A DNA stretch of 51,425 nt from Candidatus Omnitrophica bacterium CG11_big_fil_rev_8_21_14_0_20_41_12 (GTDB taxonomy: Bacteria > Omnitrophota > Gorgyraeia > Gygaellales > Profunditerraquicolaceae), in NCBI GenBank assembly GCA_002796135.1, contig PCWB01000037.1, positions 1 to 51,425 of the forward strand, in the 5' to 3' direction. Under the pieces are notes generated by a model. It was not told the DNA's origin. It worked only from the letters and a program-made list of their open reading frames with translations, and ran no database searches. Positions 38,688 to 51,425 of the stretch are shown in pieces. How positions within the stretch are numbered: position 1 is the stretch's first letter; each line of letters opens with the position of its first letter. The position numbers were made by a program, and so were the translations under genes.

Positions 38688-39074
38688 CTACAAGCTTCTA
38701 CCCAACAGGATACATTCGGCTAATTTTTTATCGATTGCAAATTGGGATTGGCCAATCTGGACAACATAGGAAGGAAATTTCTGGATCAAGGTAACAGTCA
38801 TTCCGGGTAAAATACCCATGGCCATAATTTTATTCAATTTCTTACGGTCGCTTGTATTAATCCGGCAAATCTTACCGCTTTGGTTAACGTTTAAATCAGT
38901 CATTACAAACTCTCCTTCTTTTTTAAGATGTTTCTCCCACTTTGGTTCAGGCGGGGTTTCAAATCCGCAGTTTGGGCACTTAAGCAGCTTGCACCCTTTC
39001 ATTAGCGGACAATTTCCGCAAGCCGCCTGCGCCTGATCTTCTTTAAACACAAACCCGCAAAGGCTACACTTCAT
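38688..39074 (-). CDS. feoA: FeoA protein with cysteine-rich N-terminal domain
   Basis: A 128-residue protein in two parts. Residues 1-40 hold seven cysteines in CxxC and CxxC-type pairs (CSLCG, CGNCPLMKGC, CPNCG), suggesting a metal or redox-sensing module. Residues about 55-128 are the SH3-like FeoA domain (LNKIMAMGILPGMTVTLIQK, ending AECILLGRS), which helps the FeoB ferrous-iron transporter. Standard FeoA has about 75 residues and lacks the Cys-rich part. It overlaps the FeoB permease gene by four bases (ATGA), so translation is coupled. Confidence 0.88.
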   Translation of the reverse strand: MKCSLCGFVFKEDQAQAACGNCPLMKGCKLLKCPNCGFETPPEPKWEKHLKKEGEFVMTDLNVNQSGKICRINTSDRKKLNKIMAMGILPGMTVTLIQKFPSYVVQIGQSQFAIDKKLAECILLGRSL

Positions 39075-40549
39075 AAACTAACTCCTAAAATACTGAATAT
39101 TGAATTAAGGAGAAAACCTACAAAGAAAGAAAAAAAGAGTATAAATACTGATATTGCAACTCCGGTTTTCCATCCTCTCTCTTTCACGTTCATAAGAAAC
39201 TGCGCAATACACGGAAGAAATAAAGTTAAGGTAACGCAAGCCACAACCAGCTGATTTGTAGAAAACAACCCCGCTTCCTTAATATCATAGAGCCCGCCGG
39301 CTCCGTAGTCCCTTCTAAAAAAACCGAATAGAAAAGCAACCGCTGCCTTATCCGGTAAACCTATCCAACGCACGGGATACTCCAATACCCTAATAAAAAT
39401 GGTGAATAACCCTGTGAGTTGGCCTATCCAAATCATAATGCTTGCCAATATAAACATGGGGAATATTTCGGCAAAGTACCATTTAACCCTGCTGTAAGTT
39501 TTAATAAACACATTGAATAATTTTGGCAGGCGCAAGGGGGGAATTTCCATATAAAATGATGGAGAATCGCCGGGCAGCACCTTGGAGGACAAAAACCCTA
39601 TGAAAAGAAAAACTAAACCTACTACCCCTGCCCAAATCCACAGCCCTATGGATGTCCCTGCGAGCAAAGAGAGAATCACCCCTAACTGAGCTGAACAAGG
39701 AATGGCTAAAGCAAGTAGAATAGTAGCAATAATCCTTTCCCTTTTTGTAGGAAGCGTGCGGGTAACCATGGTTGCCATCGTAGAACATCCTAATCCAAGT
39801 ACCATAGGAATAACCGCCCTTCCGGTTAGGCCTATTTTTTTGAACACCCTATCTATGAGTAAGGCTAAGCGCGGCAAATATCCCGTATCCTCAATAATCG
39901 CAAAGGCAATAAAGAATGTTGTAACGATAGGAAAAATCAGGGCCACTGCGTAGCGCACACCTAGGGTGATCATTCCATATTCGCCTACAAATAACTCCCG
40001 AAGCAAATGCCAAGGGATAATTGAAGTAAAAACTTGGTTGACCCAGGGATTGATATTCTTCTCGAAGATATTTTTCTCAATGAAATCAACCAATACACCG
40101 GCGCCGAATTTTCCTACAAATTTGTATATGCCATAATAAAGTATTACCAATAAAATTGGTATGCCTGTGAGCGAACTTATCATTATCCTGCTCAACTTTT
40201 CTCTAAGTGACAAACCTATAGCCGGTTGATATTCCAATGCCCTATCTAGAATATTATTTGTTTCCTCTTGCCGGCGGAGAGAAATAATATAAGAAAGTGG
40301 TTCATGATAATGCTCTTTGGTATGATCGACAATCTCAGCAATAAGTTTATAATTTTCTGGTTCCCGTGATTTTACAAGAGCGGTGATTTCTTCATCTTCC
40401 TGCAACAATAAGAGCCCGATCGAACGCCCGGAGATACCATAATCGGCCTCTAGCAGGCTTTCTATTTTCTCAAGCGATATTTCCAAGATATCGCCTCCAC
40501 CTTCAAATTCTTCGGGCATACTCTTCAATCCTTCCTTTGAGAACATCAA
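39071..40549 (-). CDS. feoB: FeoB membrane permease part (split FeoB)
   Basis: The 492-residue ORF carries the membrane half of the ferrous-iron transporter FeoB. It has a short soluble region (EFEGGGDILEISLEKIESLL, then spacer helices), two GATE-type domains (PMVLGLGCSTMATMVTRTLP, ILLALAIPCSAQLGVILSLL; later FGFFRRDYGAGG) and a final helical pair. Candidate starts are TTG 40549/ATG 40546 after a GGGGG box, or ATG 40516 (MPEEFEG). It overlaps the separate GTPase gene in another frame, so the GTPase and permease are made as two polypeptides. The usual FeoB is a single ~750-residue protein. Confidence 0.9.
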   Translation of the reverse strand: MMFSKEGLKSMPEEFEGGGDILEISLEKIESLLEADYGISGRSIGLLLLQEDEEITALVKSREPENYKLIAEIVDHTKEHYHEPLSYIISLRRQEETNNILDRALEYQPAIGLSLREKLSRIMISSLTGIPILLVILYYGIYKFVGKFGAGVLVDFIEKNIFEKNINPWVNQVFTSIIPWHLLRELFVGEYGMITLGVRYAVALIFPIVTTFFIAFAIIEDTGYLPRLALLIDRVFKKIGLTGRAVIPMVLGLGCSTMATMVTRTLPTKRERIIATILLALAIPCSAQLGVILSLLAGTSIGLWIWAGVVGLVFLFIGFLSSKVLPGDSPSFYMEIPPLRLPKLFNVFIKTYSRVKWYFAEIFPMFILASIMIWIGQLTGLFTIFIRVLEYPVRWIGLPDKAAVAFLFGFFRRDYGAGGLYDIKEAGLFSTNQLVVACVTLTLFLPCIAQFLMNVKERGWKTGVAISVFILFFSFFVGFLLNSIFSILGVSL

Positions 40550-41081
40550 TCCCCCTACCGGTGGTTGAAACTGTGGCCACGACGGGGATCTTCAAATCTC
40601 TTTCCAAATGCCCCAGGTTTATTTTCATCCCTATTTTTTCTGCTTCATCGATGATATTCAGGACCAGCACAACCGGCAGCCTCGCTTCAATTAACTGCAA
40701 AGTAAGCGGCAGCATTCTCTCTAAATTTTTGGCGTCAACAATATGTATGACTATGTTCGGCTTCTCCTCCAGCAATAATGTCCTGGCAACCCTCTCCTCT
40801 TCGCTGATCGGTAAAAATGAGTACATGCCGGGTGTGTCAACCACCTCAAACTCCCGTTCGCCTATCTTGGCCCTCCCCCGGGAAACCTCAACTGTCGTCC
40901 CCGGATAATTGGATACAGCCACATAAGTTCCGGTCAGGCAGTTAAAAAGCATAGACTTGCCGACATTGGGGCTGCCGACAATGGCAATTTTATCTAGATT
41001 GCCTCCGGAGGATTTCTCTTGCGGAGCCAAACAATGGCCTGTTGATTTGAACCCTTTAAGCAGTTTATTGACGATATTCAT
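40503..41081 (-). CDS. feoB: FeoB GTPase part (split FeoB)
   Basis: A 192-residue small-GTPase protein equal to the N-terminal domain of FeoB. P-loop GSPNVGKSMLFNCLTG (residues ~36-51), G2 region YPGTTVEVSRG, G3 VVDTPGMYSF, G4-type NIIDEAEK and G5-like VATVSTTGRG. It regulates Fe2+ passage through the permease encoded in the overlapping downstream gene. It ends EEYARRI, TGA, and the permease start lies inside this end, which argues for a stable split rather than a sequencing error. It follows the outer-membrane barrel gene by 12 bp. Confidence 0.9.
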   Translation of the reverse strand: MNIVNKLLKGFKSTGHCLAPQEKSSGGNLDKIAIVGSPNVGKSMLFNCLTGTYVAVSNYPGTTVEVSRGRAKIGEREFEVVDTPGMYSFLPISEEERVARTLLLEEKPNIVIHIVDAKNLERMLPLTLQLIEARLPVVLVLNIIDEAEKIGMKINLGHLERDLKIPVVATVSTTGRGIDVLKGRIEEYARRI

Positions 41082-44249: not shown

Positions 44250-45764
44250 CTAACTGCCTCTAAGCTGTCCTTTATCGATTTTACCTGCGCGGTTCTTAGG
44301 AAGTGAAGTGCGAAATTCAAAATAATACGGAATCTTAAAATGCGCCAGATGCTGGCGCAGGAAAAAACGCAGATCCTCTTCGGAAATACTTTTGCCTTCT
44401 TTAGCGACCAAAAATGCCTTGGGCACCTCGCCTCTTAATTTATCAGCTACCCCGATAACTGCGCTCTCTGCAATATCCGGATGCTTCTGCAGGCTGGCTT
44501 CCACCTCCGGTTCAAAAACAATCTCCCCGCCGACTTTAATCATCTCTTTTTTCCTGCCGACAATATAAAGAAAACCCTGCTCATCGAATCTACCGAGATC
44601 CCCGGTATGAAACCAGCCGTTGCGGATAGTTTCCCGGGTTAATTTTTCATCTTTAAAATAACCGTCGCAAACTACCCAGCTCTTAACCACCACTTCGCCT
44701 ACCGCCCCGCAACTTAACTCCTGATCATTATCCGAAAATATCTTTACCTGGATCCAGGGAGCAGCTCGTCCCACGCTTTCCACGTTTTCCGACCCCATCG
44801 GCAAAACCACCGTCGGAGCATTGGTCTCAGTTAAACCCCAACCGTTTAACAAGCTGGCTTTAGGGCAGAACTGGTGAAATCGACGTAAAGCATCCGGAGA
44901 GTTCGAGGCTCCAAAGGTCACGATCCAGCGCAGGCTGGACAGGTCAAATGTCTCAAACTCTTTTAACTGCAGGAGGGCATAGTACATCGAAGGAACGATC
45001 CAGAAAAAATTAACTTTATAATTCTGCACGTTCTTTAAAAAATCAAGCGGCATAAAACGTTCCATTAAAATAATCTTTAAACCAAAAGAGATCATATTCT
45101 GGATATAAATCAAGCCTCCTAAATGCGAAAACGGCAGGGCGCAGAGCGCGGTATCTTTTGAGCTTAAATCTGAATTTACAAAAAAAAACATGGATTTCGG
45201 CGGAGCATCCAACTGGGCGTAATTGATCAAAACGCCTTTGGGTTTACCGGTAGTGCCTGAAGTATAAAAAATAATCGCGTAATCTTTTTCATTGATTTTG
45301 GCATCGGGGCAACGATCATTGCCTTCTTTCAAAAGTTCTTCAAAACTTAAACCTTCATTATTTCCCGATTGGCAGGAGATAATGTTCTTTAATAAAGGAA
45401 GTTTTGCCTGAAGGCTGGTAAATGAAATATTGGCTTTGTGTTTAGTGATCAGAATTTTGGTTTCGGAATGCTCCAGGCAGGAAACTATTTCATCTTCGGT
45501 GAGCATAAAATCTAAAGGCACACAACAGGCACCAATTGACCAGATAGCCAGATAGCTAATAATATACTCCGGCCAATTAGGCAAATAAATTGCAATTTTA
45601 TCGCCAGGGTTTACCCCCAGCTTTAACAGGCTCTGGCTAAAAGATAAGACTTTATCTCTTAACTGGTTAAAAGAAAGCTCCTGCTGGCGTTCCTTGCGGA
45701 AAACAATCGCCGGATTTTCTCCGTATTTTCTTGCGCATTGTTCTAAAACATTATAGACATTCAT
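44250..45764 (-). CDS. AMP-forming acyl-CoA synthetase
   Basis: A 504-residue ANL-family enzyme. The adenylation P-loop is IFYTSGTTGKPKGVLI (~residue 170), followed by LLNGWGLTETNAP, the hinge-type GWFHTGDLGRFDEQG and FLYIVGRKKEMIKVGGE, and the C-terminal lysine in KNRAGKIDKGQLRG. It activates a carboxylic acid to the CoA thioester using ATP. Substrate chain length is not readable. It is directly after the aldehyde dehydrogenase gene (1-bp gap), so the acid produced there is its likely substrate. Confidence 0.88.
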   Translation of the reverse strand: MNVYNVLEQCARKYGENPAIVFRKERQQELSFNQLRDKVLSFSQSLLKLGVNPGDKIAIYLPNWPEYIISYLAIWSIGACCVPLDFMLTEDEIVSCLEHSETKILITKHKANISFTSLQAKLPLLKNIISCQSGNNEGLSFEELLKEGNDRCPDAKINEKDYAIIFYTSGTTGKPKGVLINYAQLDAPPKSMFFFVNSDLSSKDTALCALPFSHLGGLIYIQNMISFGLKIILMERFMPLDFLKNVQNYKVNFFWIVPSMYYALLQLKEFETFDLSSLRWIVTFGASNSPDALRRFHQFCPKASLLNGWGLTETNAPTVVLPMGSENVESVGRAAPWIQVKIFSDNDQELSCGAVGEVVVKSWVVCDGYFKDEKLTRETIRNGWFHTGDLGRFDEQGFLYIVGRKKEMIKVGGEIVFEPEVEASLQKHPDIAESAVIGVADKLRGEVPKAFLVAKEGKSISEEDLRFFLRQHLAHFKIPYYFEFRTSLPKNRAGKIDKGQLRGS

Positions 45765-47252
45765 TTAAAACCCATACCAATAATTAACCAGAGGTTTACC
45801 ATCAGGAGATTTATCGATAATTATATTTTTTAAACGGGTGTACTCCAGGAATCCTTCACGGCCAAGCTCTTTACCGAATCCACTCTGCTTAAAACCACCA
45901 TAAGGAAGTTGATTATAAAACATACCATAAGTATTGATCCAGACAGTTCCGGCATTAATTTTTCCGGCCACATCCTGTGCCAAAAATAAATCCTTGGTCC
46001 AAATACAGGCAGCCAGAGCAAAATCAACGCTATTGGCTAAAGTTACCGCCTCATCCGATCCGGAAAACTTATGAATCAAAACTACCGGGCCGAAAACTTC
46101 TTCTTTAAATATATGCGAGTGCGCCCCTACATCGATTAAAACCGTAGGCTCAAAAAAATAACCGTTTTTTAACTCCGCATTTTCCGGAATTTTCCCGCCG
46201 CAGATAACCTTGCCTCCCTCAGCTTTTGCCTTATCAATATAAGCGATAATTTTTTTGCGCTGCGCATCGCTGATTAACGGGCCCATCTGAGTTTGAAAAT
46301 TATCCGCCAATCCCAACTTTATGCGTTTGGCCTTTTCGATAAAACTTGCCAGAAATTTATCATAAATCCCCTCTTGCACAAAAATCCTCGACATCGCCGT
46401 GCACATCTGGCCCTGATTTAGAAAAATAGAAGTAAGCGAACTGTTTACTGCAACCTCAATATCAACATCATTAAATATTAAGCTGGCTGATTTACCCCCA
46501 AGCTCCATAATCGACTTTTTTACATGTTTAGAGGAATACTGCAGAATCTGCCTGCCGGTTTCATTGCTGCCGGTAAATGAGATCATGTCTACGCGTTTAT
46601 CCGCACAAAGCTCCTCACCGATTTTTGCGCCGGTGCCGTTAATCACATTAACCACTCCGGCGGGAAGGCCGGCATTATGGATAATTTTTGCCAACTCCAA
46701 AGCAGTAAGCGGAGTAAAACTGGAGGGCTTGAGAATAATTACATTGCCTGCAGCTAAAGCCGAAGCTAATTTCCAGCAGGTAATTAAAAGCGGATAATTC
46801 CAAGGCACGATCAAAACTACCACTCCCATAGGCTCAGGGATTAATATTGCTTTAGCATCATCTAAAATACTTAACTTTTCATCACCGAGATAATCAATAA
46901 AATTATCAGCCATAAACTCAAAAGTCTTGGCGCTGGATGGAATATCCATAAAAGTAGTTTCTTTGATCGGCTTACCGGTATTTTGCATCTCTAATTGCGC
47001 AAGTTCAGATGCGTTATCTAAAATACCTTGAGCGATTTTTGCGATAAACTCCCGGCGCTGGAGCAAAGAAAATTGCGGCCAGGGGCCATGATCAAAAGCT
47101 TCTCGTGCAGCAGATAAAGCCAGCTCTACTTCTTTGGTTGAGGCAAGCGAAGCCTCGGCAATTACTTTGCCTGTCGAAGGATTAAGGATATTCTGCTTTT
47201 CAGAAGTTTCGATAAATTGACCGTTAATATAAAGCGGGCATTTTAAATTCAT
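45765..47252 (-). CDS. NAD(P)-dependent aldehyde dehydrogenase
   Basis: The 495-residue protein is a non-acylating ALDH. Cofactor-binding segments: IVPWNYPLLITCWKLASALA and VISFTGSNETGRQI-like FTGS. Catalytic Glu is in MELGGKSASLIF and catalytic Cys in NQGQMCTAMSRIF; KEEVFGPVV closes the domain. It oxidises an aldehyde to the acid. It is placed between alcohol dehydrogenase and acyl-CoA synthetase, giving an aldehyde to acid to acyl-CoA branch for the aldehyde released by the upstream aldolase. The substrate range of the family includes acetaldehyde, glycolaldehyde, betaine aldehyde and others; not determined here. Confidence 0.92.
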   Translation of the reverse strand: MNLKCPLYINGQFIETSEKQNILNPSTGKVIAEASLASTKEVELALSAAREAFDHGPWPQFSLLQRREFIAKIAQGILDNASELAQLEMQNTGKPIKETTFMDIPSSAKTFEFMADNFIDYLGDEKLSILDDAKAILIPEPMGVVVLIVPWNYPLLITCWKLASALAAGNVIILKPSSFTPLTALELAKIIHNAGLPAGVVNVINGTGAKIGEELCADKRVDMISFTGSNETGRQILQYSSKHVKKSIMELGGKSASLIFNDVDIEVAVNSSLTSIFLNQGQMCTAMSRIFVQEGIYDKFLASFIEKAKRIKLGLADNFQTQMGPLISDAQRKKIIAYIDKAKAEGGKVICGGKIPENAELKNGYFFEPTVLIDVGAHSHIFKEEVFGPVVLIHKFSGSDEAVTLANSVDFALAACIWTKDLFLAQDVAGKINAGTVWINTYGMFYNQLPYGGFKQSGFGKELGREGFLEYTRLKNIIIDKSPDGKPLVNYWYGF

Positions 47253-47253
47253 T

Positions 47254-48276
47254 CTATTTGGTCTCCAAAATTACCTTGATACAATCTTTTGCTTCGGCTA
47301 CCAATTTAAAACCTAAACCTGCATCTTTGAGATTAAGCCGATGGGTAATTAATTTTTTTACCGAAATTTTACCGGTTTCAAGAAGCTCAAGCGCCTGGGT
47401 CTCATCAAGCGGGCTTGCTCCGTAAGAATGCATTATTTTTATGCTCTGGCGCCAGAATTCGTTTACCGGAACCGGCAAAGTTACTCCCGGATCAGTTGCG
47501 GCAAAACACATGATCGTCCCTGCGCGCTCAACTAAAGCAAGGCCCTGATGAAAAGCCGAGAGTGCTCCGGTGCAAATAATCACCTGATCTGCAAGCCTGC
47601 CAACATTCTCCTTGCGTAAAACAGAAACTAAATCATCCTTGGCATTGATTACTAAATCAGCACCTAATTCTTTGGCTATTTTTAACCGATATTCATTAAT
47701 ATCGGTTAAAACAATCCGGGCTGCCTTATTCACACGCGCCAAGAGAAGATGCAATAAACCGGATATTCCTGCTCCTAAAATCAATACAGTCTGGCCCTCT
47801 TTAATATCAGAGATCCTTTGCCCGCGTAAAACACAACCTAAGGGCTCGATAAAAGTACCTTCTTCAAATGAAATATTTTCCGGCAGCATAAACATGCCGC
47901 GCTCGATATTGATTGCCGGTACGCGGATATATTCCGAGAACCCGCCCGGATAAAAATTTGTGCTCTGCAGTGTCTGACAAACCGTATGATTACCGGCCAA
48001 GCAATAGCGGCAACCATTACAAGGAACGTGATGGGCAACAAAAACCCGGTCTCCGGCCTTAAATTTCTTAACCTTGCTGCCGCACTTTGCAATTACTCCG
48101 GTTACCTCATGCCCCAAAACCAGTGGCGCTTTTTTTACGCGGTACCACTCCAAAACATCGCTCCCGCAAATACCGCTGGCTTTTACCTGAAGCAAAATCT
48201 CATCATCGGCAATTTCAGGTATCGGCTGCTCCTGAATTCTGATATCACGGTTGTTGTAGTAAACTGCTACTTGCAT
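47254..48276 (-). CDS. Zinc-dependent medium-chain alcohol dehydrogenase
   Basis: A 340-residue MDR dehydrogenase. Catalytic zinc ligands: Cys in ASGICGSDVLEWY and His in VLGHEVTGVIAKCGSKV. The structural zinc site keeps four cysteines in CNGCRYCLAGNHTVC. The NAD(P) fold has VLILGAGISGLLHL. It may reduce the aldehyde made by the aldolase or oxidise a polyol; neighbour context suggests aldehyde detoxification. It overlaps the LsrF-type gene stop by one base. Confidence 0.9.
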   Translation of the reverse strand: MQVAVYYNNRDIRIQEQPIPEIADDEILLQVKASGICGSDVLEWYRVKKAPLVLGHEVTGVIAKCGSKVKKFKAGDRVFVAHHVPCNGCRYCLAGNHTVCQTLQSTNFYPGGFSEYIRVPAINIERGMFMLPENISFEEGTFIEPLGCVLRGQRISDIKEGQTVLILGAGISGLLHLLLARVNKAARIVLTDINEYRLKIAKELGADLVINAKDDLVSVLRKENVGRLADQVIICTGALSAFHQGLALVERAGTIMCFAATDPGVTLPVPVNEFWRQSIKIMHSYGASPLDETQALELLETGKISVKKLITHRLNLKDAGLGFKLVAEAKDCIKVILETK

Positions 48277-49076
48277 TATTTTTTAGATTTTGTAGCGTTA
48301 AATATTTTCTGCGCCTCTGAAACATCCGCCTTCTTATGTATGATCGCTTGCAAAGCAACAGCCATCGCCTCAGGATACAAAGACTGCCAGACATTCCTGC
48401 CTAAGTTTATTCCGATCGCACCATTTTGCATCCCGTCATAAACAAATTCAAAAACCTCTTTTTCGGTTGAGCATTTGGGCCCGCCGGCGATCACTACCGG
48501 AACAGGGCAGGATCTAACTACTTTATCAAAATCTTTTTCGCACCAATAGGTTTTAACAATACGAGCGCCTAATTCTGCGGCAATGCGGCAGGCTAACCCC
48601 AAATAACGCGCATCGCGCTTATCAAGTTCCCTGCCTACGGCAGTTACTGCCATTACCGGGATGCCGTAACCCTCGCACTCATTCACCAGCTTACTTAGAT
48701 TCATCAAAGTTTGGTTTTCATATTTACTACCTATAAAAACTGAAAGTCCCACTGCCGAAGCATTCAAGCGGATAATCTCTTCAATAGAAGTAGTCAGCCC
48801 TTCATTTGCTAAATCTTCGCCAACCATGCTCGTTCCTCCGGAAACCCGTAAAATTATCGGCGCCTCTAAATTGGCGTTGATCGCCGAACGCAATACTCCG
48901 CGGGTTACAAACAAACCGTCACAATATTTTATAATATCTTTGATGGTTTCATTGGGCTTCTCTAATCCGCTGGTCGGCCCCTGAAAATAACCATGATCGA
49001 CAGGCATAAAAAAACAGTGTCCGTCGGGTTTAATCAATCTGCTCAAACGGTTCTTCATTCCCCAATCCATACGCAC
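48276..49076 (-). CDS. LsrF-type 3-hydroxy-2,4-pentadione phosphate thiolase/aldolase
   Basis: The 266-residue (beta/alpha)8 protein strongly resembles E. coli LsrF throughout: DWGMKNRLSRLIKPDG, PVDHGYFQGPTSGLE, LFVTRGVLRS, and the Schiff-base lysine in RIVKTYWCEKDF (~residue 175) followed by PVPVVIAGGPKCS. LsrF thiolyses P-HPD, the AI-2-derived C5 diketone phosphate, to DHAP and acetyl-CoA. FbaB/DeoC-type aldolases are relatives, and an aldolase role on another ketose phosphate cannot be excluded. No lsrACDBFGEK genes are in the window. Six bases from the class II aldolase gene. Confidence 0.82.
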   Translation of the reverse strand: MRMDWGMKNRLSRLIKPDGHCFFMPVDHGYFQGPTSGLEKPNETIKDIIKYCDGLFVTRGVLRSAINANLEAPIILRVSGGTSMVGEDLANEGLTTSIEEIIRLNASAVGLSVFIGSKYENQTLMNLSKLVNECEGYGIPVMAVTAVGRELDKRDARYLGLACRIAAELGARIVKTYWCEKDFDKVVRSCPVPVVIAGGPKCSTEKEVFEFVYDGMQNGAIGINLGRNVWQSLYPEAMAVALQAIIHKKADVSEAQKIFNATKSKK

Positions 49077-49082
49077 CTCCGA

Positions 49083-50087
49083 TTAATTTTTAATTCTCAC
49101 CTGTTTAAATAATTCAAATAACCTGCTAAAAGGAATATACCATTTAGAAAGTTGGCCCAGCTGGCCGCTTAATTTCATCTTCCCCTGCGTCACTGCCACA
49201 AACGAATCCAGCTTACCTAAAAATACCTGCTCCCAAACGCTAGCCGGGGCAGAAATCACAAAAGGGGCATCGCTGTCAGTATCGAGCTTCACAATTTTGC
49301 CTTTTTCAAAATTAAATTTATAAACATCGCTAGTATCATCAAGCTTAATCGCTAATTTTACCGTCAGATTCAACTCTTTGCCTTTTTGAGCAATAAATTC
49401 ATCCTGATTAACCAGGTCCACGATTGCCTGAATATGCTCTCTGGAAAACATAGTATAGACATCAGTACTGGCTAAATCCTCTTTTAAAGTTTTATCTAAA
49501 TTATCAAGAATATCTTTTTTAAATAACCGGGCAACTGCAGCCATCTTTACCGCGTCTTCTAAAGTTTCAATTAAACTCAGGGCGGCTTTAAAATTATTGG
49601 CTACGCAAACAACACCATGATTCTTTAAAACTACCAAGTTGCTCGTCTTTAAAGCCTCAACCACTGCTTCCGGCTTGCTTACTGCAGGAGTTTCCTGCGG
49701 AATAACCGGGATATTCCCCAAATAAACTTTACTTTCAAAGGTAAGCGTCGCTAGATCAGAATAAACCGCAAAATAAGCATTGGCTAAAACCGGATGACAG
49801 TGAATGATAACCCTATCCGTCAAGATCTCATGTATCAGCCGATGTAAAGGAAATTCAGAAGTCAGGCGTTTATTTGCCAAGTCCTGCTGATTGTGCAGGT
49901 CTACCTTAATAATATCCCCGCTCTTTAGATTCCCTAATACCGAACCTGTCATAGTAATCAGAATCCGGCCTTCGCCTAAACTAGCGCTGACATTTCCGGA
50001 GCTTCCGGCTGCCAGGTGCAGTGCATGCAGTTTTTTGCCGCAATCAATTATTGCTTTTTTTATTTTTCGTTCTTTTCCCAGGATCAT
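49083..50087 (-). CDS. Class II aldolase fused to SCP2-like lipid-binding domain
   Basis: A 334-residue two-domain protein. Residues 1-~205 are a fuculose/ribulose-phosphate-type aldolase: phosphate loop AGSSGNVSAS, general base Glu78 in TSEFPLH, zinc ligands His96 and His98 in HCHP, and His157 in LKNHGVV. These match FucA Glu73/His92/His94/His155. After a helix, residues ~235-325 match the SCP2 sterol-carrier fold (TVKLAIKLDD, VYKFNFEKGKIVKLD, ASVWEQVFLGKLD, TQGKMKLSGQLGQL). Class II aldolases cleave ketose-1-phosphates to DHAP and an aldehyde. The fused lipid-binding domain is unusual and may bind a hydrophobic aldehyde or membrane lipid. Confidence 0.85.
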   Translation of the reverse strand: MILGKERKIKKAIIDCGKKLHALHLAAGSSGNVSASLGEGRILITMTGSVLGNLKSGDIIKVDLHNQQDLANKRLTSEFPLHRLIHEILTDRVIIHCHPVLANAYFAVYSDLATLTFESKVYLGNIPVIPQETPAVSKPEAVVEALKTSNLVVLKNHGVVCVANNFKAALSLIETLEDAVKMAAVARLFKKDILDNLDKTLKEDLASTDVYTMFSREHIQAIVDLVNQDEFIAQKGKELNLTVKLAIKLDDTSDVYKFNFEKGKIVKLDTDSDAPFVISAPASVWEQVFLGKLDSFVAVTQGKMKLSGQLGQLSKWYIPFSRLFELFKQVRIKN

Positions 50088-50090
50088 TTT

Positions 50091-51005
50091 TTAGACCTCT
50101 AAATATATGTGTTTAGTGATTAATTTTGCCGGCGTAACGTCAAAAGCCGGATAATACGCTTTAACTTCTTTAGGCGCTAAATGGAGGCCCTGATAAATCT
50201 TTAATTCATCCGGCGGACGGATCTCGATCTTAATTTCTTTGCCGCTTTTTAATTTCGATGCCGGCGGGCACAGAACATAAAAGGGAATCTTAAAATATTT
50301 AGCAACTACCGCAATCTGATAGGTGCCGATTTTATTGGCAATGTCGCCGTTTTGGGTCAAGTGGTCTGCCCCGACGATAATTTTAGTCACTTTACCTAAT
50401 GATAATAAATACGCCACCATATTATCGGTGATAATCGTAACGTCAAATCCCGCGCGCATAATCTCCCAAGCAGTAAGCCGGGAACCTTGTAGATAGGGAC
50501 GGGTTTCCGTAACATAAAAACTGGCTTTTTTGCCCTGCTCTTTGGCAAACTCAGCAATCAATGGCATCAATCCGCTGACATTACAGTGTGTCAGGATGAC
50601 ATCACCATTTTTAAGCAGCTTGGCTGTTTCTTTTGCTTGCTCAATACGTTTACCCTTAAGCATCTCCAAAAATCCTAAGGTACTTTTCTCAAGCGGCGCC
50701 CCCTGCTTCTGCCAACCCAAAACCATATCGGTTAGGAATTTAAAGGAGAGCGTCGGCCGGGTAACGTTAATCGCCTGGGCAACTTTAGCTAAATTTTTGT
50801 GCTGGCGATTACTTAAAATAAATGTGTACATTACCAGAAGCACCTGGCCTACGGCGCGGGTCTTCATCTCTTTAATCGCCCTGCAGGCATCGAGGTAATT
50901 TTTGGCTTTTAGATAAACTAACTTTTGCGGCAGTTTAGTTTCATCTAAAATATAAATGACATTGCCTCTTAACTGTATCGGCCAGAATAACGGAGAAAAT
51001 TTCAT
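50091..51005 (-). CDS. MtnA/eIF2B-type sugar-1-phosphate isomerase
   Basis: A 304-residue protein of the MtnA/eIF2B-like isomerase family. Conserved core: ILTHCNVSGL (catalytic Cys ~141), VTETRPYLQGSRLTAWEIMR, TIITDNMVAYLL, VGADHLTQNGDIANKIGT (catalytic Asp ~214), KIPFYVLCPP. Members isomerise methylthioribose-1-P, 5-deoxyribose-1-P, ribose-1-P or ribose-1,5-bisphosphate to the ketose. The phosphate-binding RGAPAIG loop of MtnA is changed to RAVGQVL near residue 50, so the natural substrate may differ. It is shorter than MtnA (about 350). It lies between the aldolase (3 bp) and the phosphorylase. Confidence 0.85.
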   Translation of the reverse strand: MKFSPLFWPIQLRGNVIYILDETKLPQKLVYLKAKNYLDACRAIKEMKTRAVGQVLLVMYTFILSNRQHKNLAKVAQAINVTRPTLSFKFLTDMVLGWQKQGAPLEKSTLGFLEMLKGKRIEQAKETAKLLKNGDVILTHCNVSGLMPLIAEFAKEQGKKASFYVTETRPYLQGSRLTAWEIMRAGFDVTIITDNMVAYLLSLGKVTKIIVGADHLTQNGDIANKIGTYQIAVVAKYFKIPFYVLCPPASKLKSGKEIKIEIRPPDELKIYQGLHLAPKEVKAYYPAFDVTPAKLITKHIYLEV

Positions 51006-51086: not shown

Positions 51087-51425
51087 CTAACCTTTCTCTA
51101 ATTTTTTAACTAATTCCAAAGCGATTTTAATGACATTACTTTCCGCCATATAATAAAGCGGATTCATAAAACCCATTTCCCCGGTAACCACATTATCGCT
51201 TACCGCTAAAATTGATCCGGCTTTGATATTATAAGTCTGACAAATTGTAAGCAGGGTTGAGGAAACCATATCTACTACCCTTGCCCCTTCTTTACGCTTA
51301 GCCTCCACAATCTCGCGAGTTTCGCGCAGGAGCGCATCCGTAGTCCAGGCTTTACCGCGGTGTACCGTCAAGCCCATACCTTGGGCAATCTCAAAAAGCA
51401 AATCAGAGATTTTTTTATCGCTGAC
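51087..51425 (-). CDS. Nucleoside phosphorylase family protein, C-terminal part
   Basis: The gene continues past the right edge; the open frame extends upstream (SDKKISDLLFEIAQGMGL) so the ORF-track start is not real. The visible 112 residues end in the PNP/UDP fold: RGKAWTTDALLRETREIV, then VVDMVSSTLLTICQTYNIKA, GSILAVSDNVVTGEMGF. The fold cleaves nucleosides with phosphate to pentose-1-phosphate and base. The ribose-binding MEx motif of the family (for example EMEGA, EMEAS) reads DMVSS here, so Glu is replaced by Val. It leads the operon whose isomerase and aldolase would take the sugar phosphate onward. Confidence 0.78.
   Translation of the reverse strand, partial: VSDKKISDLLFEIAQGMGLTVHRGKAWTTDALLRETREIVEAKRKEGARVVDMVSSTLLTICQTYNIKAGSILAVSDNVVTGEMGFMNPLYYMAESNVIKIALELVKKLEKG

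Follow-up and report, generated by a model that had tools for sequence, protein, structure and literature searches.

A class II aldolase fused to an SCP2 domain in a ketosynthase and radical-SAM operon setting of Omnitrophota

The window analysed here, a stretch of 51,425 nucleotides from an Omnitrophota genome, carries a tight operon encoding, in order, a DeoD/uridine-phosphorylase-like purine nucleoside phosphorylase (PNP), an MtnA-like isomerase, an aldolase fused to an SCP2 domain, an LsrF-type thiolase, an alcohol dehydrogenase (ADH), an aldehyde dehydrogenase (ALDH) and an acyl-CoA ligase (Table 1). Intergenic gaps from MtnA to the ligase are 3, 6, −1, 1 and 0 bases, the LsrF-type gene starting 6 bases downstream of the aldolase gene. 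The plus-strand frame across the fusion gene (49083-50087) contains many stops; the coding strand is the minus strand. Elsewhere in the window (39071-41081, minus strand), two overlapping ORFs of 192 and 492 aa resemble the G domain and the membrane part of FeoB and are apparently a split or frameshifted pair.

Table 1 Features of the fusion gene, its operon and the upstream cluster (window positions unless another contig is given).
Feature	Position	Strand	Basis or remark
PNP, C-terminal part	51087..51425	(-)	Window ends inside gene; N-terminal part on contig C47
MtnA-like 5-deoxyribose/methylthioribose-1-phosphate isomerase, operon copy	50091..51005	(-)	IF-2B family; THCN and GADH motifs
Aldolase/SCP2 fusion gene	49083..50087	(-)	ATG start, 334 aa
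Aldolase domain, residues 12-183	49539..50054	(-)	Pfam Aldolase_II (PF00596)
Linker, residues 190-212	49452..49520	(-)	Length and sequence vary among homologues
SCP2 domain, residues 213-334	49086..49451	(-)	Pfam PF02036 at residues 245-312, and fold
LsrF-type thiolase	48276..49076	(-)	PRK08227 equivalog, 350 bits (cut-off 297)
Zinc-dependent medium-chain alcohol/polyol dehydrogenase (ADH)	47254..48276	(-)	Family match
Aldehyde dehydrogenase (ALDH superfamily)	45765..47252	(-)	Catalytic Cys motif NQGQMC
AMP-forming acyl-CoA ligase, FadD-like	44250..45764	(-)	Long-chain-fatty-acid-CoA ligase subfamily, 423 bits, below cut-off 476
KS-alpha/KS-beta/ACP/B12-radical-SAM/cyclase cluster	G000:C47:2303-12801 (locus L165)		Outside window

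The first-pass annotation had read the N-terminal part of the fusion as a FucA-type aldolase with the catalytic residues Glu78, His96, His98 and His157, and this is borne out. Residues 12-183 match Aldolase_II at 114 bits (cut-off 22; E 7.4e-33), and all four residues, as well as Asn32, Thr45 and others, are invariant in 71 full-length fusion homologues. A model of the whole fusion built with 35 homologues has a mean pLDDT of 89.8, with confidence below 50 at linker residues 197-205 only, and its top PDB matches are FucA enzymes (Thermus FucA 2fk5, E 5.4e-14); in fold searches the aldolase is about 23% identical to the solved Bacillus thuringiensis enzyme (6btd/6btg). The protein thus shows the Pfam match, the FucA fold and the catalytic Glu with three metal-binding His of the PF00596 superfamily. 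It shares this fold and these residues with L-fuculose-1-phosphate aldolase FucA, but differs from it in its extra domain, in a neighbourhood where no fucose genes were seen and in its score against the FucA equivalog, which rejects an identity with FucA proper (TIGR01086, 43 bits against a cut-off of 400). MtnB was rejected likewise (TIGR03328, 47 bits against 137). With PNP and MtnA encoded upstream, the expected substrate is a 5-deoxypentulose 1-phosphate rather than fuculose 1-phosphate.

A PDB search with the full fusion model listed aldolase-superfamily matches only, so a separate model of the SCP2 part was built and used as query. The C-terminal 126 residues (pLDDT 94.4) found Thermus SCP2 2cx7 as their best fold match (TM 0.84, E 1.8e-8), with archaeal SCP2, UbiJ-SCP2, the human MFE-2 SCP2-like domain, mosquito SCP2 with a C16 fatty acid and the C-terminal domains of alkylsulfatases (SdsA1) among the other leading matches. 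Residues 245-312 also match PF02036 at 25.9 bits (cut-off 21.3; E 1.3e-5), and a profile of the domain reaches 2cx7 by sequence alone (E 2.3e-5). The SCP2 likeness first noticed in the sequence is thereby confirmed, SCP2 proteins heading the structure-based comparison that had been proposed as its check, and the fold of the C-terminal part is settled. Judged on the features tested, the fusion is a class II aldolase and SCP2 protein. Across the 71 homologues, 36 positions in residues 213-334 are always hydrophobic, which is only suggestive as to a ligand; S215, N227, D229, Q301 and R322 are invariant polar residues.

SCP2 folds attached to, or serving, enzymes are known from UbiJ/UbiT, the alkylsulfatase SdsA1 and human MFE-2, with which the fusion shares the SCP2 fold. 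The SCP2 module of UbiJ binds hydrophobic biosynthetic intermediates for an enzyme complex (PMC6747719), and by analogy UbiJ, SdsA1 and MFE-2 offer precedents for SCP2 modules that carry hydrophobic substrates to enzymes, which would make the C-terminal part of the fusion a putative lipid-binding module. No aldolase partner for SCP2 and no aldolase-SCP2 fusion is described among the papers found, and the view that the architecture is unusual for aldolases is upheld. In three loci (L033:6216-6608, L146 and L148) the operon contains a second SCP2 module, encoded by a stand-alone gene of 130-134 aa that lies between the MtnA gene and that of the fusion.

Fusions of full length are present in well over 100 Omnitrophota genomes, including most genomes of the source's genus and family, and throughout the class. 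Matches were found in 44 of the 58 relatives searched, mostly at full length, and some match was found in 175 of 384 genomes phylum-wide, the stronger ones again mostly full length. The search for the same fusion that the first-pass annotation had suggested thus finds it across Omnitrophota, and an isolated assembly artefact is excluded. Among the best 80 of 164 confirmed matches listed from a genome-collection scan, one is labelled as belonging to another phylum (Planctomycetales, L087), the others being titled Omnitrophota/Omnitrophica, a named Omnitrophota candidate or simply a bacterium. L087 corresponds to the same contig place as G031, a member of the window's family according to the genome search. 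Searches of viral contigs returned no relatives of the fusion.

Within 35 diverse fusions, mean pairwise identity is 51% for the SCP2 part, 46% for the aldolase part and about 21% for the linker, and the SCP2 part is the more conserved of the two domains in 415 of 595 pairs. This indicates that the SCP2 domain is under selection, and to judge from these alignments it is constrained at least as strongly as the enzyme part. In the aldolase tree, unfused proteins (188-212 aa, with the catalytic residues retained) are nested inside the fused ones, and strongly supported branches force at least two changes. Read most simply, this tree suggests that the fusion is ancestral and that the unfused proteins lost the SCP2 domain together with the gene cluster described below.

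Gene content places the aldolase in a known biochemical context that the first-pass annotation had missed: it had recognized the aldolase, its catalytic residues, the SCP2 fold and the relevance of the downstream acyl-CoA synthetase, but not the upstream PNP and MtnA or the LsrF/ADH pair. The synthetase does belong to the picture, as the FadD-like ligase ends the same tight operon, although this family assignment does not fix chain length. A phosphorylase, an MtnA-type isomerase and a class II aldolase are encoded together, adjacent in most loci and accompanied by ALDH and often by the ligase. The same adjacent genes make up the DHAP shunt (DrdA or Ald2, MtnA, and MTA phosphorylase or kinase; PMC6079011, PMC10986504), and by analogy the fused enzyme is predicted to work on its substrate like the DHAP-shunt aldolase. 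In contrast to that shunt, the Omnitrophota operon adds the fused SCP2 domain, ALDH, a FadD-like ligase, LsrF and ADH, lies in a ketosynthase (KS) and B12-radical-SAM operon setting, and shares its genome with a second MtnA.

That second MtnA (G000:C30:24379-25335) is 38% identical to the operon copy and has neither a phosphorylase nor an aldolase close by; its neighbours, named from their protein sequences rather than by family search, are thiL, tsaE, tsaB and an alr-like gene. Every fused genome tested carries a pair of MtnA genes, one being the operon copy and the other of a type present in nearly all tested Omnitrophota, so the operon copy is not required as the sole MTA/5'-deoxyadenosine isomerase. 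The layout varies among loci. In one distant clade (L064:7595-8125, L078:8404-8880, L036, L037 and L066-L074), a protein of roughly 150-176 aa matching only the C-terminal half of MtnA/IF-2B, perhaps a pseudo-subunit, lies between MtnA and the aldolase. A class IV aminotransferase replaces PNP upstream of MtnA in L070, L074, L078, L079, L097, L127, L132, L143 and L157, and an RND/MMPL-type exporter weakly similar to the hopanoid transporter HpnN lies near the aldolase in the distant loci L034, L036, L037 and L073-L075.

The operon continues upstream onto contig C47, as indicated by 44 identical bases inside the PNP gene (window 51382-51425, L165:1-44) and by the missing N-terminal part of PNP at the start of C47; the window's contig and C47 lie next to each other on the chromosome of this bacterium. 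C47 encodes an ApbA-like reductase, a 198-aa protein, KS-alpha, KS-beta, a B12-radical-SAM enzyme, ACP, a PF04199 cyclase, a START-like protein, MFS and SDR proteins, a 137-aa protein, an amidohydrolase (AmidoH2), a 155-aa protein, CrcB and DUF190. KS-alpha retains Cys-His-His, whereas the triad of KS-beta is lost (Arg-Asp-Asn or Lys-Asp-Asn), the mark of a chain-length-factor partner; together with an ACP bearing a phosphopantetheine site, these form a type II ketosynthase pair. Variants of this layout recur in about 110 loci. Between AmidoH2 and PNP lie the fluoride-exporter-like CrcB and DUF190 genes (L165:518-1218), and what seem to be these families (DUF190, 109 aa; CrcB, 124 aa) occur in only about 14 of the ~110 loci.

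The operon radical-SAM enzyme keeps 83-90% identity between genera of the source's family. Such conservation suggests that the product is central to these bacteria and not an accessory metabolite, and the cluster has the look of a core pathway for a lipid, a polyketide or a quinone-like compound. Omnitrophota clusters have been called ladderane by antiSMASH (PMC9902471). These are possibly the same kind of FabF/radical-SAM neighbourhood, but against the ladderane radical-SAM model (TIGR04072) the enzyme here scores 85 bits, far under the cut-off of 360.

Fusion and cluster travel together. Of 34 fusion-bearing genomes tested, 33 have the operon radical-SAM enzyme; it was found in none of 7 genomes with an unfused aldolase only and in 3 of 18 that lack a strong aldolase match (33/34 versus 3/25; Fisher p 5e-12 for related genomes of one phylum, uncorrected for shared ancestry). 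All four mismatches (one fused genome without the enzyme, three other genomes with it) lie at contig ends, where the sequence breaks off immediately before the genes would be expected. KS-beta is distributed in the same way. Single genes can depart from this rule, as genome G046 has one fused copy plus an unfused aldolase adjoining KS genes, ligase and PNP. That the fusion is present and lost with the KS-pair/ACP/cyclase/B12-radical-SAM cluster fits a hydrophobic substrate.

Taken together, we put at slightly under one half (about 0.48) the probability that the fusion is a DHAP-forming class II aldolase of the 5'-deoxynucleoside type that gained an SCP2 domain and acts on a probably hydrophobic group R held by that domain. 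PNP would split a 5'-substituted 5'-deoxyadenosine with phosphate, MtnA would isomerize the resulting sugar phosphate to a 5-substituted 5-deoxyribulose 1-phosphate, which the aldolase would cut at C3-C4 into DHAP and R-CH2-CHO. ALDH would oxidize this aldehyde to R-CH2-COOH, and the ligase would convert the acid to R-CH2-CO-CoA. The chemistry of the trio is well supported, and the order of steps is that predicted from family chemistry: in 5-deoxyribose salvage, 5'-deoxyadenosine passes through 5-deoxyribose 1-phosphate and 5-deoxyribulose 1-phosphate to DHAP and acetaldehyde (PMC6079011). We infer that ADH and LsrF may provide a parallel route, in which ADH would oxidize the C4 hydroxyl and thiolysis by LsrF would release DHAP and R-CH2-CO-CoA. 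On 5-deoxyribulose 1-phosphate this oxidation would give 3-hydroxypentane-2,4-dione 5-phosphate, the substrate to which the NCBIfam name of LsrF refers, and LsrF transfers the acetyl group of a phosphorylated pentanone to CoA, releasing DHAP and acetyl-CoA (PMC8016206). What R is and what SCP2 does are proposed with less certainty. R would be a lipid or polyketide produced by this operon, with SCP2 holding it and presenting its bulky tail to the aldolase; the fused SCP2 module, the KS/ACP cluster, the START-like protein and the FadD-like ligase tip the balance, by a narrow margin, towards a hydrophobic R. The first-pass annotation had also offered a membrane-associated step, and nothing points to one as such.

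Characterized PNP/MtnA/aldolase trios act on small 5' groups (H, SCH3 or F) and yield small aldehydes such as acetaldehyde. A serious competing explanation, which we consider quite conceivable while leaning against it, is accordingly ordinary salvage of 5'-deoxyadenosine or MTA for the cluster's radical-SAM enzyme, with R being H or SCH3 and with SCP2 kept off the substrate and serving, in the manner of UbiJ, to dock the aldolase onto a lipid-pathway complex. Acetaldehyde or methylthioacetaldehyde would then become acetyl-CoA or methylthioacetyl-CoA through ALDH and the ligase, possibly as a ketosynthase starter. The exact trio is proven in B. thuringiensis and described in six phyla (PMC6079011), the DHAP shunt is reported in E. 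coli (PMC10986504), and the DHAP and acetyl-CoA released in LsrF chemistry (PMC8016206) fit as well. The operon radical-SAM enzyme should itself make 5'-deoxyadenosine. Since no other class II aldolase homologue was found in the source genome, the fused aldolase could also serve ordinary salvage, which counts against a hydrophobic R. This explanation nevertheless leaves unaccounted for a putative lipid-binding module fused to the aldolase, a second MtnA kept in the operon and a ligase that is FadD-like rather than of the acetate type.

We think it doubtful that SCP2 binds no ligand and serves as an oligomerization or active-site cap module in place of the mobile FucA C-terminal tail. Some SCP2-like domains, that of Eis among them, have no known lipid ligand, and the Eis domain is itself a fold match here; the SCP2 part follows the place of the FucA tail, a segment that closes the adjacent active site, and its invariant polar residues may serve contacts rather than lipid. 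However, the linker is long, variable and predicted to be disordered, as suits a tether more than a fixed cap, the short unfused homologues keep their catalytic residues, and extra stand-alone SCP2 genes adjoin the fusion in three loci. A fluorometabolite-type pathway from 5'-fluorodeoxyadenosine through fluoroacetaldehyde to fluoroacetate follows the PNP-isomerase-aldolase-ALDH logic of Streptomyces cattleya (mentioned in PMC6079011) and would suit the CrcB and DUF190 matches of the source genome, but it is very improbable given how few loci have these families, and it is largely refuted by a search for the SAM_HAT fluorinase/chlorinase (PF01887), found in 0 of 10 genomes with a positive control. 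An assembly or frame artefact joining two genes, for which we found no point in favour, is refuted by the same fusion running uninterrupted by stops or frameshifts in dozens of independent genomes.

Returning to the reading in which SCP2 holds a hydrophobic R, a bolder extension, which we regard as rather unlikely, is that the B12-radical-SAM enzyme puts 5'-deoxyadenosyl on a chain, after which PNP would take off adenine, MtnA would open the sugar and the SCP2-aldolase would release DHAP to leave R-CH2-CHO, then R-CH2-CO-CoA, for a net addition of two ribose carbons of S-adenosylmethionine (SAM) to a lipid or polyketide. SAM would then be a carboxymethyl donor for an unactivated carbon. To our knowledge, BchE/HpnJ-like B12 enzymes are not known to add 5'-deoxyadenosyl to a lipid. 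Hopanoid HpnH-HpnG shares the logic of a radical-SAM enzyme with a nucleoside phosphorylase and puts ribose carbons on a lipid; here, in contrast, the PNP is DeoD/uridine-phosphorylase-like and the ribose would be cut rather than kept. HpnH, the enzyme known to add 5'-deoxyadenosyl to a lipid (adenosylhopane synthase, TIGR03470), is over cut-off in 0 of 10 genomes, which weighs against the main reading as well.

What is known here is the core trio, a 5'-deoxynucleoside (DHAP-shunt) route; what is new is its joining to the KS-pair/ACP/B12-radical-SAM cluster on C47. This suggests that a well-known recycling route for used SAM has been diverted towards a fatty or polyketide molecule. The fusion links the recycling of radical-SAM waste to a conserved lipid/polyketide-like operon of a large uncultured phylum and, if R is hydrophobic, then in a way not described among the papers found, the ribose carbons of SAM would be a lipid building block.
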